Positions 50,909 through 59,160 of a stretch of DNA of 64,000 nucleotides are shown here, piece by piece (within the stretch, counting starts at the first letter, position 1; each line of letters starts with the position of its first letter). Position numbers and translations under genes: made by a program. Source of the stretch: Arabidopsis thaliana (Eukaryota > Streptophyta > Magnoliopsida > Brassicales > Brassicaceae). The stretch is taken from NCBI RefSeq assembly GCF_000001735.4, contig NC_003071.7, positions 9,975,151-10,039,150 on the forward strand. Direction: 5' to 3'. A model generated the notes under the pieces. It saw only the letters and a list, made by a program, of their open reading frames with translations. It made no database searches and was not told where the DNA came from.

Positions 50909-51798
50909 TTTGATTGTTTGTTGAACTAAATTAAATGTCCCTTGGAGGTATTTATATACATAATTTGTTATACGCCAAGTTAAGATTACTCTTTCACTCT
51001 TTGTATATGTATGTGTGTTGGTCGTGTTTGATTTTAGTGAGAATGCTTTTGTTTTGTCAAGATGTGATAAAATTCGATTACCTCTTTTCCCAAAGTTTTC
51101 AAAATCGGAGTGAACCAGGATTTGGATATTGAAATCGAGTCGGTTCAGTTAAACCGATTTTAATCTAGACTCGGCAACCTTAACCGGTCGGCCTGATTCG
51201 GTTTTCACTGTCTCTCTTTAGTCTTTCCCCTCTTTAGGGACTTTCCGTTAATGTCGCCGGCGACGGAAACTCAGGAATGTCGGTTCTCTGTGATCTCGAT
51301 TCCGACGAAAAGGCAGCAAATTTGCAGCCGTGTCAGCCGCAGAGAGCATCCCCTTCTTCTCGTAACCGCAGCAGCCGCAGAAACTCCGACAAAAACGCCA
51401 TCGTTTCGATACAGTAAATAGTAGGTGGATTTTCAAAAGCACCTGCTTTAGATTCTTATTTTTTATGCTTCAGTGCTTGAAACTGTTCGAAGGGTAGAGG
51501 AAATTTGATGAAAAGTTTTGTCTTTTCTTGTGGTGGAAGCTGAAGTTCGTTACTAAGGCTGTTGTCTAAGGTCCAGAGAATGGTAAACCAACGTTAAAGT
51601 GACTGTTAGTTAGTTTGTGGCTGTTCATTAAGTTCCAGATAATGGTACACCAACTTTACATTGAGTGTTAGTTTTAAGTCGGTAGAGTTGATGGAGTTAG
51701 TTTGTTGGTAGGTCGCCCTCTGGATTGTATATAATCTTAGAGCATAATCTTTGGATGAAAAACTGTTTATATGTACCTGCCATCTTCAAGAGATAATG

Positions 51799-51912
51799 AT
51801 AGATTTCTTGAGGCTTTTGATAACATGGACATATGATCTGCATCTTTGCATTTTCAAGTGCAAAGATGCAGATCATATGTCCATGTTAATATCAAAGCCT
51901 CAAGAACTCTAT
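51799..51912. ncRNA. Putative hairpin-forming inverted repeat of a MES exon
   Basis: 51822-51850 and 51859-51887 are perfect reverse complements over 29 bp with an 8-base loop (ttttcaag). Pairing extends outward to about 51799 and 51912 with one small bulge and few mismatches. Both arms derive from the part of MES exon 3 encoding DADHM...SKPQEL. The phrase catatgatctgcatctttg is identical to MES7 and MES19. A transcript would fold into a long near-perfect stem. Transcription is not shown by sequence. Confidence 0.55.
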
Positions 51913-52027
51913 CTGCCCACGAACAAGATCAGACCACTCCTGGTTATTTACCTTCTCTTTTTTAGCCTCTTTGTCTTCTATTTTTTCGACTATTAGTTTT
52001 GCTGGTAGCTGTCTGCGATTTACAAGA

Positions 52028-52127
52028 GATGGCCAGTTAGTAGTTGAGGCTTGCAGAACATTGGCATATGATCTGTGTCTACCATCTCTATCGCCTGATA
52101 ATTATTAATCATTAATTGCTGATGTTC
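52028..52127 (-). pseudogene. MES8-like exon 3 fragment
   Basis: The plus-strand text gatggccagttagtagttga and following bases align with the MES8 last exon near 59485 (gatggtcacttagtagttga), continuing through the His-motif region with substitutions and a gap. Only about 100 bp remains. Confidence 0.6.
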
Positions 52128-52662
52128 TTTTGCAATGGCTTTGTCCTCTCTGATCAGTTGTATTTTTTTACAGACGTAGGCGTATTAGTGAATTACAATA
52201 CCAAATTGGCCAATCTTCACTCAGTGAATCAGTCAGTTATATGAACTTACTTTTTTCCTCTCATTAGCCTAGATTCGTTTTCCGTTTTCTCCTCTAGTTT
52301 TTCTTTGCTTCAGTGCTTGAAGTTGTTTGATCGTAGACGAAAGTTGATGAGAAGTTATAGCTTTTCTTGAATCTAAGATTAGATCAGTGCAGTTGCCATA
52401 TTGTTCAGTTGTTTTCATCTTGCATATAGAAATTGCTCTGCAACATTGGTTATAGTGATGCTTCGCAATGCAGACATTGCAGTTCTCTCTATTATGATGC
52501 TATGATCCTACATTTGAAACCAAGAGGCCTTGTAACTACTTCTCTGTGTAATACAGTTTTCTCACGAAACTTTATTATATAAGCATTATCATTTGCTTAG
52601 TTCTCATACATATAGATGTATTCTCTTATGGCGTATTATTTATTGGTGGAAGCTGAAATTGG

Positions 52663-53617
52663 TTAATTTTTGCAATATTTATTTGCAATCTCCAGGAGAA
52701 GAGCACAAACTTCTTGAGGCTTGGAGAACATTGGCATATGATCTGCACATTTGATCTCCATTACTTCTTTTGGTGGAAAGTTGCTAATCATCCAACGCTG
52801 GTAATCTTCGACTTCCACAAGATCCTCTCTGCATACAATATATATACGTGTAACGGATCCGTACCCTTCCTCACTAAAGCTTCTTGTCCCTGCCAGATTG
52901 TTTGTAACTAACGGGTTTTCCCTCACTAATGTCTTCACCACTTCAAGATCCTTATTCGCCACAACAACAATCAACAAAAGATTGACTGAGATTACTAGCA
53001 CAATCCCATTTGTTTTTCTTTAAAGATTGGAGTCTTACTTGAACTGGAGAGTTTTGATACATTTTCTTGGCCATAAACTTTGGTCCCAAAAGAGTATACT
53101 GTAGAGGAAAATCAGGTTTCCCGTAGTTCACACACGTGGTGTCCAACCATTCCTCTTGTGGAATGCTTCTGAGCAGCTGCAGATTTAAGTATCAGAATCA
53201 CTCTGAAGAGATATCAGTCAGATAACATCATGTTCATTTATGTACCTTTTCGTAAACATAAGCAGGTGGGTTTATTGTGTCGGGCATGAAAGCTGTCAAA
53301 AAGACAATAGCGGCAATCTTACAAGCGAAGCTGTCAGCAGCAAGTGCAGCGGATATTCCTCCCATGCTATGAGCAACAACAATCACCTTACCGTCATCTG
53401 AGCCAAGCGAGCTCAGAAACTCAAGCAATGGTTTGCAGTAATCGTTCAGAGTCTGAATCTCTTCCACTTTGGTCATGTTTATACCTGATGCAGCAAGATC
53501 CACTGCCGTCACACAGTGACCTGCAACCTCCAGCTGCGTTTTCACCTTGTCCCAAGTCCATGCCCCGTGGCACACCCCATGGATGAGCACAAACCGCTTC
53601 TGGTTCTTATTCTCCAT
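52663..53617 (-). CDS. MES6: Methylesterase MES6
   Basis: Alpha/beta-hydrolase of the methylesterase family that cleaves methyl esters of plant hormones such as methyl salicylate, methyl jasmonate or methyl-IAA. Three exons, 53246-53617, 53039-53176 and 52663-52950, give 265 aa from [14 protein letters not shown]; an upstream in-frame ATG adds seven residues and is less likely by comparison with paralogues. The nucleophile is in AHSMGG (Ser 84), the acid Asp 213 in IVCRED, and the His 241 in CADHMPMF. The C terminus is two to three residues longer (YCKN) than in its neighbours because the usual stop position differs. The triad is intact, so an active enzyme is possible; activity for this member is not established to my knowledge. 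It corresponds to At2g23550. Confidence 0.92.
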
Positions 53618-54185: not shown

Positions 54186-55132
54186 TTAGGCGTATTTATC
54201 TGCAATCTCCAAGAGAAGAGCACAGAGTTCTTGAGGCTTAGAGAACATTGGCATATGATCTGCATCTTTGATCTCCAGTACTTCCTTCACCGGGAAGTCA
54301 TTGATCATCCCACGCTGGTAATCCACAGGTACCGCAACGTCCTCTCCGCATACGATATATATACGTGTAACGGATCCGTACCTGTCCTCACTGAAGCTTA
54401 TTGTCCCTGCCAGGTTGTTTGTCATGAACGGGCTTACCCTCACCGACATTTTCGCCAATTCAAAATCCTAAACCAACACAACAACAATTAACAAAAGTTT
54501 AACTGAGGTTTACAAGCAATCCCATTTTAGTTTTTATGAGGCTTGGAGTCTTACTTGGAGGGGAGATAGGTTATACAAATACTTGGCCATGAACTCTGGT
54601 CCAAAAAGAGCAAACTCTAGAGGACGATCAGGTTTCCCAAACACAGTATCCATCCATACCTCTTGTGTAACGTCTTTGACCAGCTGCTAGTTTCAGGCAG
54701 ATATCAGAATCACATTGAAGAGATCACACCGTGAAGTTAATAATCATCGTTTTTACGTACCTTTTGGAAAACGTAAGCAGGCGGGTTGCTTATGTCGGGC
54801 ATAAAAGCTGCCACAAAGACAATAGCAGCAACTTTACTAGGGAAGATATCAGCAGCAAGTGAAGCTGATATTCCTCCCATGCTATGAGCAACAAGAATCA
54901 CCTTATCGTCATCCGAGCCAAGTGAGCTCAGAAACTCGAGCAGCGGTTTGCAGTAATCCTTCAAAGTCTGAATCTCATCCAGGCTAGTCATGTTTACACC
55001 AGATGCAGCTAGATCAACTGCGGTCACAGAATGACCAGCAGCCTCCAGCTGGGCTTTCACCTTGTACCAACACCAAGCTCCATGGCAGATTCCATGTACA
55101 AGCACAAACTTCTTCTGGTTATTCTTATCCAT
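54186..55132 (-). CDS. MES7: Methylesterase MES7
   Basis: Three exons, 54761-55132, 54555-54683 and 54186-54467, give 260 aa. Family members of this clade hydrolyse methyl salicylate to salicylic acid, and MES7 is reported active on it. Ser 84 in AHSMGG, Asp 210 in VCGED and His 238 in DADHMPMF complete the triad. The second exon is three codons shorter than in MES6, MES19 and MES4. The intron 1 acceptor is a TAGCAG tandem (NAG-NAG); use of the second AG matches the paralogues, and the first would insert one Gln. It corresponds to At2g23560. Confidence 0.94.
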
Positions 55133-56562
55133 TCCCTTGTTTACTCTCAGTATTTTTGTTCAGCACTTATATATAGAAATAGAAATACTTTCTGCATTTT
55201 GGCTATTAGTTTTATTAATTCAACCATATGAATAGAATGCAATAAAATTCGAACCTTTGGAAAGATCAATGTAACTGTATTATTAAATCTAAATACATAC
55301 ATTTTTGTTGTGTATCAAATGTTTTTCTTATGTTAAAGAATGGTATAATGCCAGTTGTAGGAAAAGAACGTATCGAATAAGAAAACGACTATTAACACAT
55401 TTGGACTTTAGTGAAATAAAAGTTCATTAAAGTGAAAATAAAGGTAATGATTTTGATGCATGATTATAGTTTTTTTTTTTTTTGTCAATTATATTTTTGT
55501 TTAATAGTTAGAGTTAAGTAAGCCTAGTGGGAGTGGTTATGTAGTAGTAGTTAGAGACTTTATTTGTGTGTGAGTGTGTGTAATGCTGTAAAGAATGTGT
55601 GAGAAAAAAATGCATTAGCTTTTCTTATGTCTTCCTTTTCTCAAAAAAATTTAAAACGTTTTTTTTTAGTCAAAGTCTAAGTTAGAATCAAAATAGAGAG
55701 ATGCAAGAAGAGAGCAACAAATATTACGAATACTAGTAAAATCAACAAAGATGCACTAAAAACATAGTGAGAATATTATTTTATCATTTTTGTTATATGA
55801 GATTGATTAGCATTATTGTCGTCTTAAAAGCTAAAACATGCTAACATTTTTTTCTGTGTATACACGGTGCTCATGCTATTTGCTTCCTTGGGCAAACAAA
55901 AGCTAGACGTCTAAAAATAGGTATAAAACCATCAATTTGATTTCTGTATAATAAGAGAAGTTAAACACTGCCGGGGGGAAATATATTGAACTTAAGGTTC
56001 TATATGTTTAGAAAAAAATCAATTGCAATAGGATACAAGCACACGATACAACAATACTATTGTTAGGATATATTTCACAAAAGATGTTTATTTAGATATC
56101 TAAACAAGCGTTTAGCAGAGAATTACTAGAAAATATAGTAAAAACTATTTTTCGGTGTCCAAATGAAATAAACCAAATCTTTATTTACAAAGTATAAAAA
56201 ATGATGAATTTTGATTTAGCTACTATATAATAACTGATATTAAATAAATCTTAAGAATCCAAATAAATTTTTGTTTGGTTCATAAGCTGCCACATGTTCC
56301 TAGTACTTTATCTAGGTATCATGTAACTTCTATGGCTGCAGGATTTACCAATGGGAAGAATGGTGGTTGTTATATGCTTACGGCCATATAGATTTTTGTG
56401 ATACAATATACTTAATTGTAACACGAATTTTATTTATATAACCACTCTTATAACTGCTTCTCTATGTAATACCGTTCTTATGAATATTATTTCTCATATG
56501 GCTTATTGTTGAGGTGGAAGCTGAAGTTCATTACTAATTTGTAGTGACCATCTAAGGTTTAT
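55133..56562. other. Spacer between MES7 and MES19
   Basis: About 1.4 kb, the longest gap in the array. AT-rich. A phrase tataataagagaag near 55945 resembles Arabidopsis Helitron 5' ends, but no matching 3' terminus was found nearby. No gene seen. Confidence 0.45.
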
Positions 56563-57520
56563 TTAGGCGTATTTATCTGCAATCTCCAAGAGAAGAGCAC
56601 ATAGTTCCTTAGGCTTGGAGAACATTGCCATATGATCTGCATCTTTGATCTCCATTACTTCTTTCACCGGGAAGTTGCGGATCATCCAACGCTGGTAGTC
56701 CTCAGGTAATATATTATCCTCTCCACTTATGATATAAATACGTGTAACCGATCCATATCCTTCCCCAGTAAAGCTTCTTGCCCCTGCCAGATTATTCGTA
56801 ACCAACGGGTTTACCCTTACCAACATTTTCGCCAGTTCAAGATCCTAATTAAAGGTAACAATCAAAAGAAGAATACATGAGGTTACTAGCAATCTCGTTT
56901 GTCAAAAAGAGGTTTGATTAGGCTTGGAGTCTTACTTCTATTGGAGACCGTTGATACACTTTCTTGGCCATGAACTTTGGTCCCAAAAGAGCTGACTCAA
57001 GAGGACAATCTGGATTCCCGTACCTTCCGAACGCGGTGTCCAACCATTCTTCTCGTGGAATACTTCTGATCAGCTGAAGAGTTTAGTCATCTATCAGAAT
57101 ATATCACTCGAAAGCGATCATACCGTGCAACAAAAGCATCATGTTTTTTATATGTACCTTTTCGAAAACATAAGCAGGTGGGTTTCTTGTGTCAGGCATG
57201 AAAGCTGCCAAGAAGACAACAGCAGAAATCTTACAAGAGAATATGTCAGCAGCAAGCGCAGCGGGTATTCCTCCCATGCTATGAGCAACAAGAATCACCT
57301 TATCGTCATCCTAGCCAAGCGAGCTCATAAAATTAAGCAAGGGTTTAGAGTAGTCCATCAATGTCTGAATCTCTTCCACTATGGTCATGTTTATACCCGA
57401 TGCAGCCAGATCTACTGCGGTCACACAGTGACCTGCAGCCTCCAACTTTGTTTTCACCTTGTACCAACTCCACGCCCCGTGGCAAACCGCATGTACAAGC
57501 ACAAACCGCTTTTTCTCCAT
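56563..57520 (-). pseudogene. MES19: MES19, methylesterase gene with a premature stop
   Basis: Three exons, 57158-57520, 56936-57073 and 56563-56844, align end to end with the neighbouring genes in one frame of 261 codons. A TAG at 57311-57313 interrupts exon 1 after residue 69 (context SSLG, stop, DDDKV). Paralogues have TCG (Ser) there, so one base change explains it. Everything downstream is intact, including AHSMGG, the Asp motif (SGED) and DADHMAMF, and the splice sites are normal. The lesion looks recent; the truncated product would lack the nucleophile. It corresponds to At2g23570. Confidence 0.9.
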
Positions 57521-58209: not shown

Positions 58210-59160
58210 TTAGGCATATTTACATGCAATCTCCACGAGAAGAGCACATAGTTTGTGAGGCTTGGAGAACATTGCCATATGATCTGCACATTTGATCTCC
58301 ATTACTTCTTTTGGCGGAAAGTTCTTGATCATCCACCACTGGTAATCCTCGGGTACCGCCATGTCCTCTCCACATACAATATATATACGTGTAACGGTAC
58401 CGTACCCTTCCTCACTAAAGCTTCTTGTCCCTGCCAGATTATTTGTAATGATGGGGTTTACTCTCACCAACATTTTCGCCAATTCAAGATCCTAACCCGT
58501 CACAACAACAATCAATAAAGGATTGATTACAAGCAATCCCATTTTTGTTTTTATTAGGCGTGGAGTCTTACTTGGACCGGAGAGAGTTGATACAAATTCT
58601 TGGCCATGAACTTTGGTCCAAAAAGAGCAAACTCTAGAGGACATTCATGTTTCCCATACGTTCCAAACACGGTGTCCAACCATCCTTCTTGTGGAACGCT
58701 TCTGATTAGCTGCGGATTTTAGTAAAATATTAGAACCACTTGGAAGAAGTCATACCTCAAAACCATATTAGAATGTATGATGATGTACCTTTTGGTAAAC
58801 ATAAGCAGGTAGGTTTCTTGTGTCGGGCATAAAAGCTGTCAAGAAAACAATAGTAGCAATCTTACTAGGGAATATGTCAGAAGCGAGAGCAGCAGGTATT
58901 CCTCCCATACTATGCGCAACAAGAATCACCTTATCGTCATCCGAGCCAAGTGAGTTCAGTAACTCAAGCAAAGGTTTGCAGTAATCCTTCAAAGTCTGAA
59001 TCTCTTCCAATCTAGTCATATTTATACCGGATGCAGCTAGATCCACCGCGGTCACACAGTGACCTACAGCCTCCAGATGCGTTTTCACCTTGTACCAACA
59101 CCAAGCGCCGTGGCACAGCCCATGGACGAGGACAAACCGCTTCTTGTTGTTCTTCTCCAT
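58210..59160 (-). CDS. MES4: Methylesterase MES4
   Basis: Three exons, 58789-59160, 58572-58709 and 58210-58491, give 263 aa. Triad: Ser 84 in AHSMGG, Asp 213 in VCGED, His 241 in [11 protein letters not shown]4 is reported to have methyl salicylate esterase activity. Exon lengths equal those of MES6 except at the extreme C terminus, and the protein is closest in appearance to MES6 and MES7. A TA-rich TATA-like run lies at 59203-59220, about 45-60 bp before the start codon. It corresponds to At2g23580. Confidence 0.94.

Follow-up and report, generated by a model that had tools for sequence, protein, structure and literature searches.

Does the short inverted repeat beside the methylesterase (MES) gene array on chromosome 2 of Arabidopsis thaliana constitute a young small-RNA gene made from one of its neighbours, and does it act upon them? 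The original prediction, made from the sequence alone, had proposed a candidate young MIRNA or siRNA locus. We followed this up in a stretch of 64,000 nucleotides (NC_003071.7, positions 9,975,151 to 10,039,150 of the forward strand), referred to below as the window. We are confident that the locus is the annotated young MIRNA ath-MIR5595a/ath-MIR5995b and that it was born from a MES exon fragment. That MES mRNAs are measurably silenced by this hairpin is, in our estimate, about even.

Structure of the hairpin

The inverted repeat occupies window positions 51798-51913 and is near-perfect, as had been proposed, with arms that measure ~55 bp where ~50 bp had been expected. It is organized as follows:

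51798-51913, both strands: hairpin of ath-MIR5595a (minus) and ath-MIR5995b (plus), the two strands folding almost identically
51798-51817 with 51894-51913: outer arm pair
51821-51853 with 51856-51888: inner arm pair

Thirty contiguous perfect pairs connect 51821-51850 with 51859-51888, so that the perfect stem of the original prediction stands while its length, given as 29 bp, has to be corrected; the loop, TTTTCAAG, has the 8 nt anticipated. When the two 58-nt halves are aligned, 2 of the 55 ungapped columns are mismatched, and two internal indels, one of 3 nt and one of 1 nt, interrupt the alignment. RNA folding of 51780-51930 returned −83.2 kcal/mol for the plus strand (z = −13.98) and −82.8 kcal/mol for the minus strand (z = −13.1), and in neither case was any of 200 shuffled sequences as stable. 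The stability of the hairpin is thus far beyond chance expectation.

The 30-bp stem is the longest perfect hairpin stem of the whole window (loop of at most 60 nt). Shuffling the whole window 20 times with dinucleotide content preserved gave a maximum stem of 13, and six of the 20 shuffles were devoid of any stem of at least 11. A scan for inverted repeats of at least 24 nt lying within 400 bases returned five pairs; the hairpin is 97% complementary and the other four are 70-83% complementary, one of them being formed by a hairpin arm and a second exon relic (52057-52080). The community criteria for plant MIRNA loci ask for a foldback shorter than 300 nt and for a miRNA/miRNA* duplex with few mismatches and without large loops. 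Here, a single foldback of 116 nt contains the duplex within its 30 perfect pairs, and large loops are absent.

Identity of the locus

Rather than being a new candidate, the hairpin is already catalogued: miRBase and Rfam both list it, and it has been read from small-RNA libraries. The Rfam family mir-5595 (RF04242) matches 51819-51890 on both strands, with 101.0 bits for the plus and 100.6 bits for the minus strand, and because both values exceed the gathering score of 100, if narrowly, the locus belongs to this family. Several other Rfam models (MIR8675, mir-556, mir-3119, mir-737, mir-8356 and 6S) also matched the same stem; their scores are far below the respective gathering scores and were attributed to hairpin shape.

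In miRBase v20, ath-MIR5595a (minus strand) and ath-MIR5995b (plus strand) are both placed at chr2:10026910-10027050, with the accessions MI0020188/MI0020189 (PMC4573627). This interval corresponds to 51760-51900 of the window, overlaps the hairpin and ends 13 nt before the end of the right arm. Table 2 of a nitrate study by Vidal et al. lists miR5995b as the 21-nt sequence AAAGAUGCAGAUCAUAUGUCC on the minus strand of chromosome 2 at 10026977-10026997, with a "YES" for miRNA* reads; the same study places the locus between AT2G23540 and AT2G23550 and credits miR5995b to Zhang, Jin and Xie 2012, a study of jasmonate-treated plants according to its title (PMC3906980). The published read is found in the window without any difference:

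51827-51847, minus strand: published miR5995b, AAAGAUGCAGAUCAUAUGUCC, exact match; found also at 51862-51882 on the plus strand

Window positions were obtained by subtracting 9975150 from the chromosome 2 position, a conversion that we consider correct since the miR5995b read and two of three control loci fall at their published positions (MIR172a and MIR156a carry the expected Rfam family at their published coordinates, and MIR779 has no Rfam hit). The database entries and the hairpin are the same locus, given the overlap in coordinates and the position of the published mature sequence inside the stem. The only offset is that between the listed precursor (51760-51900) and the symmetric hairpin (51798-51913). 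According to a survey of 1060 accessions, the overlapping MIR5595 pair was genotyped as one region and is not copy-number variable (PMC10085913). The numbers 5595a and 5995b designate the two strands of one hairpin, and one paper has 5595b instead (PMC10085913); 5995b is possibly a typing slip that turned into a name.

As a discovery, our analysis adds little, the locus, a mature sequence and predicted MES targets being already in print. In the passages of the miR5595/miR5995b literature examined, neither the origin from a MES exon nor a duplex accounting for both database entries is stated.

Origin from a MES exon

Both arms match the end of MES exon 3, the neighbouring MES genes running on the minus strand:

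51770-51848, minus strand: left arm with ~28 nt of adjoining sequence, a MES exon 3 relic (terminal part) in MES-gene orientation, identical to the exon of the gene at the MES7 position in 64 of 79 columns
51856-51913, plus strand: right arm, MES homology spanning 51861-51910, 43 of 50 columns identical to the same exon

On the left, the exon homology continues for ~28 nt past the repeat, and on the right it stops with the repeat. For this reason the left arm is probably the relic of the parental exon, and we infer that the right arm is its inverted copy. With a 19-nt core set aside, the exon at the MES7 position is still matched by 45 of 60 columns of the left arm and by 24 of 31 of the right; the value for the left arm shows that the similarity comprises more than a microRNA site alone. 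Homology beyond the miRNA region, which is what an inverted duplication in a young MIRNA should leave, is hence present on both arms. The proposal that the repeat was built from MES exon 3, and that it may be a young MIRNA born by inverted duplication, agrees with these alignments, although the locus turned out to be annotated already. Inverted duplication is the accepted mechanism for the birth of MIRNA genes, a model that reportedly goes back to Allen et al. 2004 (cited in PMC1790633).

The hairpin might also be a MITE-like, transposon-derived inverted repeat whose similarity to MES genes is due to chance, MITEs being a known source of plant hairpins. Against this, a search of the plant's own genome with the hairpin (119.66 Mb, 7 contigs) found, among the best candidates scored, at least six matches, namely two to itself and four in two MES exons, of which one belongs to the array and the other lies on contig 4. 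Within the window, the arms weakly match the remaining MES exons too, their only other match being the second exon relic, and the homology extends past the arm into the flank. With no dispersed copies among the best-candidate genome matches, an origin from a transposon was set aside as highly improbable.

We also considered dating the duplication by the divergence of the arms (2 substitutions in 55 columns), which at a substitution rate of 7e-9 per site per year corresponds to ~2.6 million years (roughly 0.3 to 9). This date was given no weight because it depends on too few events and because gene conversion between the arms would mimic a younger age.

The relic, its putative inverted copy and several of the likely targets all lie within 7 kb. 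The locus presents a clean case of the birth of a miRNA from a neighbouring gene family, in which the inverted-duplication model can be read directly in the sequence. MIR161, MIR824 and other gene-derived loci likewise have arms that resemble protein-coding genes beyond the miRNA, according to Fahlgren et al. 2007.

Putative guide duplex and predicted targets

Duplex geometry assigns to the published read AAAGAUGCAGAUCAUAUGUCC the partner ACAUAUGAUCUGCAUCUUUGC with 2-nt 3′ overhangs, although these overhangs alone prove nothing, as the stem is so perfect that any register has such a partner. The partner can be located on both strands:

51829-51849, plus strand: inferred guide ACAUAUGAUCUGCAUCUUUGC on the 5′ arm of the plus-strand precursor, overhang partner of the published read
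51860-51880, minus strand: the same guide ACAUAUGAUCUGCAUCUUUGC on the 5′ arm of the minus-strand precursor, as computed

We take ACAUAUGAUCUGCAUCUUUGC to be the mature miR5595a sequence of miRBase. It is antisense to MES mRNA, and the published read AAAGAUGCAGAUCAUAUGUCC has MES sense and would hence be the passenger for MES silencing. The symmetry of the repeat means that guide and star are identical for the two strands, that reads cannot be assigned to one strand or one arm, and that the two database entries may represent a single product.

The guide was matched to the MES genes, the names of which (MES6, 7, 19, 4, 8, 2, 3, 1 and 9) we assigned by position and presume to be correct. The predicted sites within the array are:

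52734-52754, minus strand: first MES gene (MES6 by order), weaker predicted site, score 3.5
54251-54271, minus strand: second MES gene, exon 3 (MES7 by order), predicted site paired except at guide positions 1 and 21
56628-56648, minus strand: third MES gene (MES19 by order), predicted site paired except at guide positions 1 and 21
58275-58295, minus strand: fourth MES gene (MES4 by order), weaker predicted site, score 3.5

A 19-base stretch of the arm, CAAAGATGCAGATCATATG, is identical in the genes at the MES7 and MES19 positions, as had been noticed, and also in the MES gene on contig 4 (MES9). The guide pairs with each of these three at positions 2-20, forming 19 contiguous pairs. MES6 and MES4, said to deviate by few bases, do so at four positions of the 21-nt site, one of them a G:U. 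With the usual plant weighting, applied to the window and two further genomic stretches, the guide scores 2 for the MES7- and MES19-position genes and for MES9, and 3 for a further MES gene at C2:10044475. The expectation that the likely targets reside in the adjacent array is borne out in that the best-matching predicted sites are found there; MES9, on another chromosome, has to be added to them.

Across the whole genome, the guide has ten matches with at most three mismatches: two to the hairpin itself, four in MES exons (with 2, 2, 2 and 3 mismatches), and four elsewhere, at C1:7279145 (2 mismatches) and at C1:25043539, C2:16810029 and C4:13244836 (3 each). A reversed control pattern has two matches at the same threshold.

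The target site encodes the peptide IKDADHM, which aligns to IKGADHM of SABP2 and includes what is presumably the catalytic histidine. Since the site codes for this peptide, protein coding alone can hold it constant across the MES genes. When the guide region was compared with the rest of the arms by run-length permutation, six comparisons gave no significant extra conservation (P 0.058-0.210). In this respect the hairpin differs from miR778, miR780, miR824 and miR856, for which Fahlgren et al. 2007 describe the miRNA region as clearly more conserved than the rest.

Does the hairpin regulate MES genes?

From the pairing, the hairpin is predicted to silence some of the adjacent MES genes. The following course of events would account for the arrangement. 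Next to the MES array, the decayed terminal part of a MES exon 3 would have been copied in inverted orientation to give the ~55-bp hairpin. A transcript from either strand would fold alike and be diced to the same duplex, with the guide ACAUAUGAUCUGCAUCUUUGC, antisense to MES, on the 5′ arm and the star AAAGAUGCAGAUCAUAUGUCC on the 3′ arm, and the guide would then be expected to direct slicing of MES7, MES19, MES9 and perhaps MES3 mRNAs at the IKDADHM-coding segment. In this account the sequence of events in the duplication, the dicing into one dominant product, the loading into AGO1, the slicing and any effect on the metabolism of methylated hormones are putative.

In the cold, miR5595a changed −2.88-fold and its predicted target MES9 +3.58-fold, apparently at 6 h, the targets in that study being psRNATarget predictions (PMC7325139). 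Two reviews that cite Gong et al. 2019 give miR5595 as increased, under manganese according to the title of Gong et al., with MES genes as its targets; in one of them, MES7 and MES9 are instead named in connection with miR826, perhaps through a confusion. Degradome or cleavage evidence for MES mRNAs was not found in the literature searched.

The hairpin is compatible with both a MIRNA and an siRNA reading. DCL4, DCL2 or DCL3 might cut the stem into a mixture of 21-24 nt products, the MIRNA label then reflecting a permissive annotation and the origin from a MES exon being the same; we regard this as possible, yet rather doubtful. It would suit a stem with only 2 mismatches and 2 internal indels over ~55 bp, of a kind that Fahlgren et al. 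2007 expect to be a poor DCL1 substrate, and also the existence of two overlapping antisense annotations for one hairpin. The published 21-mer argues the other way, as Table 2 of the nitrate study lists it with miRNA* reads, even though a perfect stem supplies a partner for any register (PMC3906980). The annotated hairpin might, alternatively, be MIRNA-like and have no regulatory role, giving rise to small RNAs at a low level that leave MES transcripts not measurably affected; such neutral drift of the locus is perhaps the commonest fate according to Fahlgren et al. 2007. We consider this to be only slightly less probable than not. The complementarity to the targets stems from shared ancestry and is maintained on the MES side by coding for IKDADHM, and the guide region lacks significant excess conservation; moreover, the nitrate study describes all its new miRNAs as expressed at a low level, most having been sequenced fewer than 50 times (PMC3906980). 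A lack of function is harder to reconcile with the cold response opposite to that of MES9 (PMC7325139), with the manganese response and MES targets in the reviews citing Gong et al. 2019, and with the reported finding that MIR5595 is not copy-number variable among 1060 accessions (PMC10085913).

Salicylate is among the hormones that MES enzymes liberate from methyl esters, and the value of the locus would be greater if MES silencing were true. The most far-reaching version of a regulatory MIRNA would be a strand-indifferent gene, in which the same guide results whichever side is transcribed and acts as a working brake on MES7, MES9, MES19 and MES3, paired with the action of miR163 on SABATH methyltransferases; we deem this unlikely. 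The SABATH targets of miR163 methylate, whereas the MES enzymes predicted as targets here remove methyl groups. If the pairing were real, young miRNAs would control the methylating as well as the demethylating enzyme family, and each would have arisen next to the gene cluster that it targets, from the very family to which those targets belong. The two loci differ in that ath-MIR163 yields a 24-nt product and has mutant phenotypes in defence, while the published product of the present hairpin has 21 nt and its targets are only predicted.

Surroundings of the hairpin

The region around the hairpin contains further repeated and MES-derived segments:

52010-52157, minus strand: second MES exon 3 relic, outside the hairpin, nearest to MES8/MES2/MES1-type exons, with one TAA stop in the protein match

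This second relic agrees with MES8/MES2/MES1-type exons in up to 117 of 155 columns and also shares a tract of 31 identical positions out of 32 with the exon at the MES6 position (52714-52745), so that its origin looks like gene conversion or a mosaic. A 72-nt direct repeat (80.6%) at 51459-51530 and 52299-52369, spaced by 840 bp, flanks the hairpin region. This repeat region may be a duplicated MES 3′ flank, as 51525-51556 resembles 56506-56537, located just 3′ of a MES gene. Upstream of the hairpin, the two copies of a 55-nt direct repeat (81.8%; 51557-51611 and 51619-51673) lie 62 bp apart, and the window search returned no further match to them. In exon 1 of the third MES gene (MES19 by order; C2:10032323-10032655, window 57173-57505), an in-frame TAG is located within the match to the hydrolase model, which could point to a pseudogene or to a match that extends into an intron.
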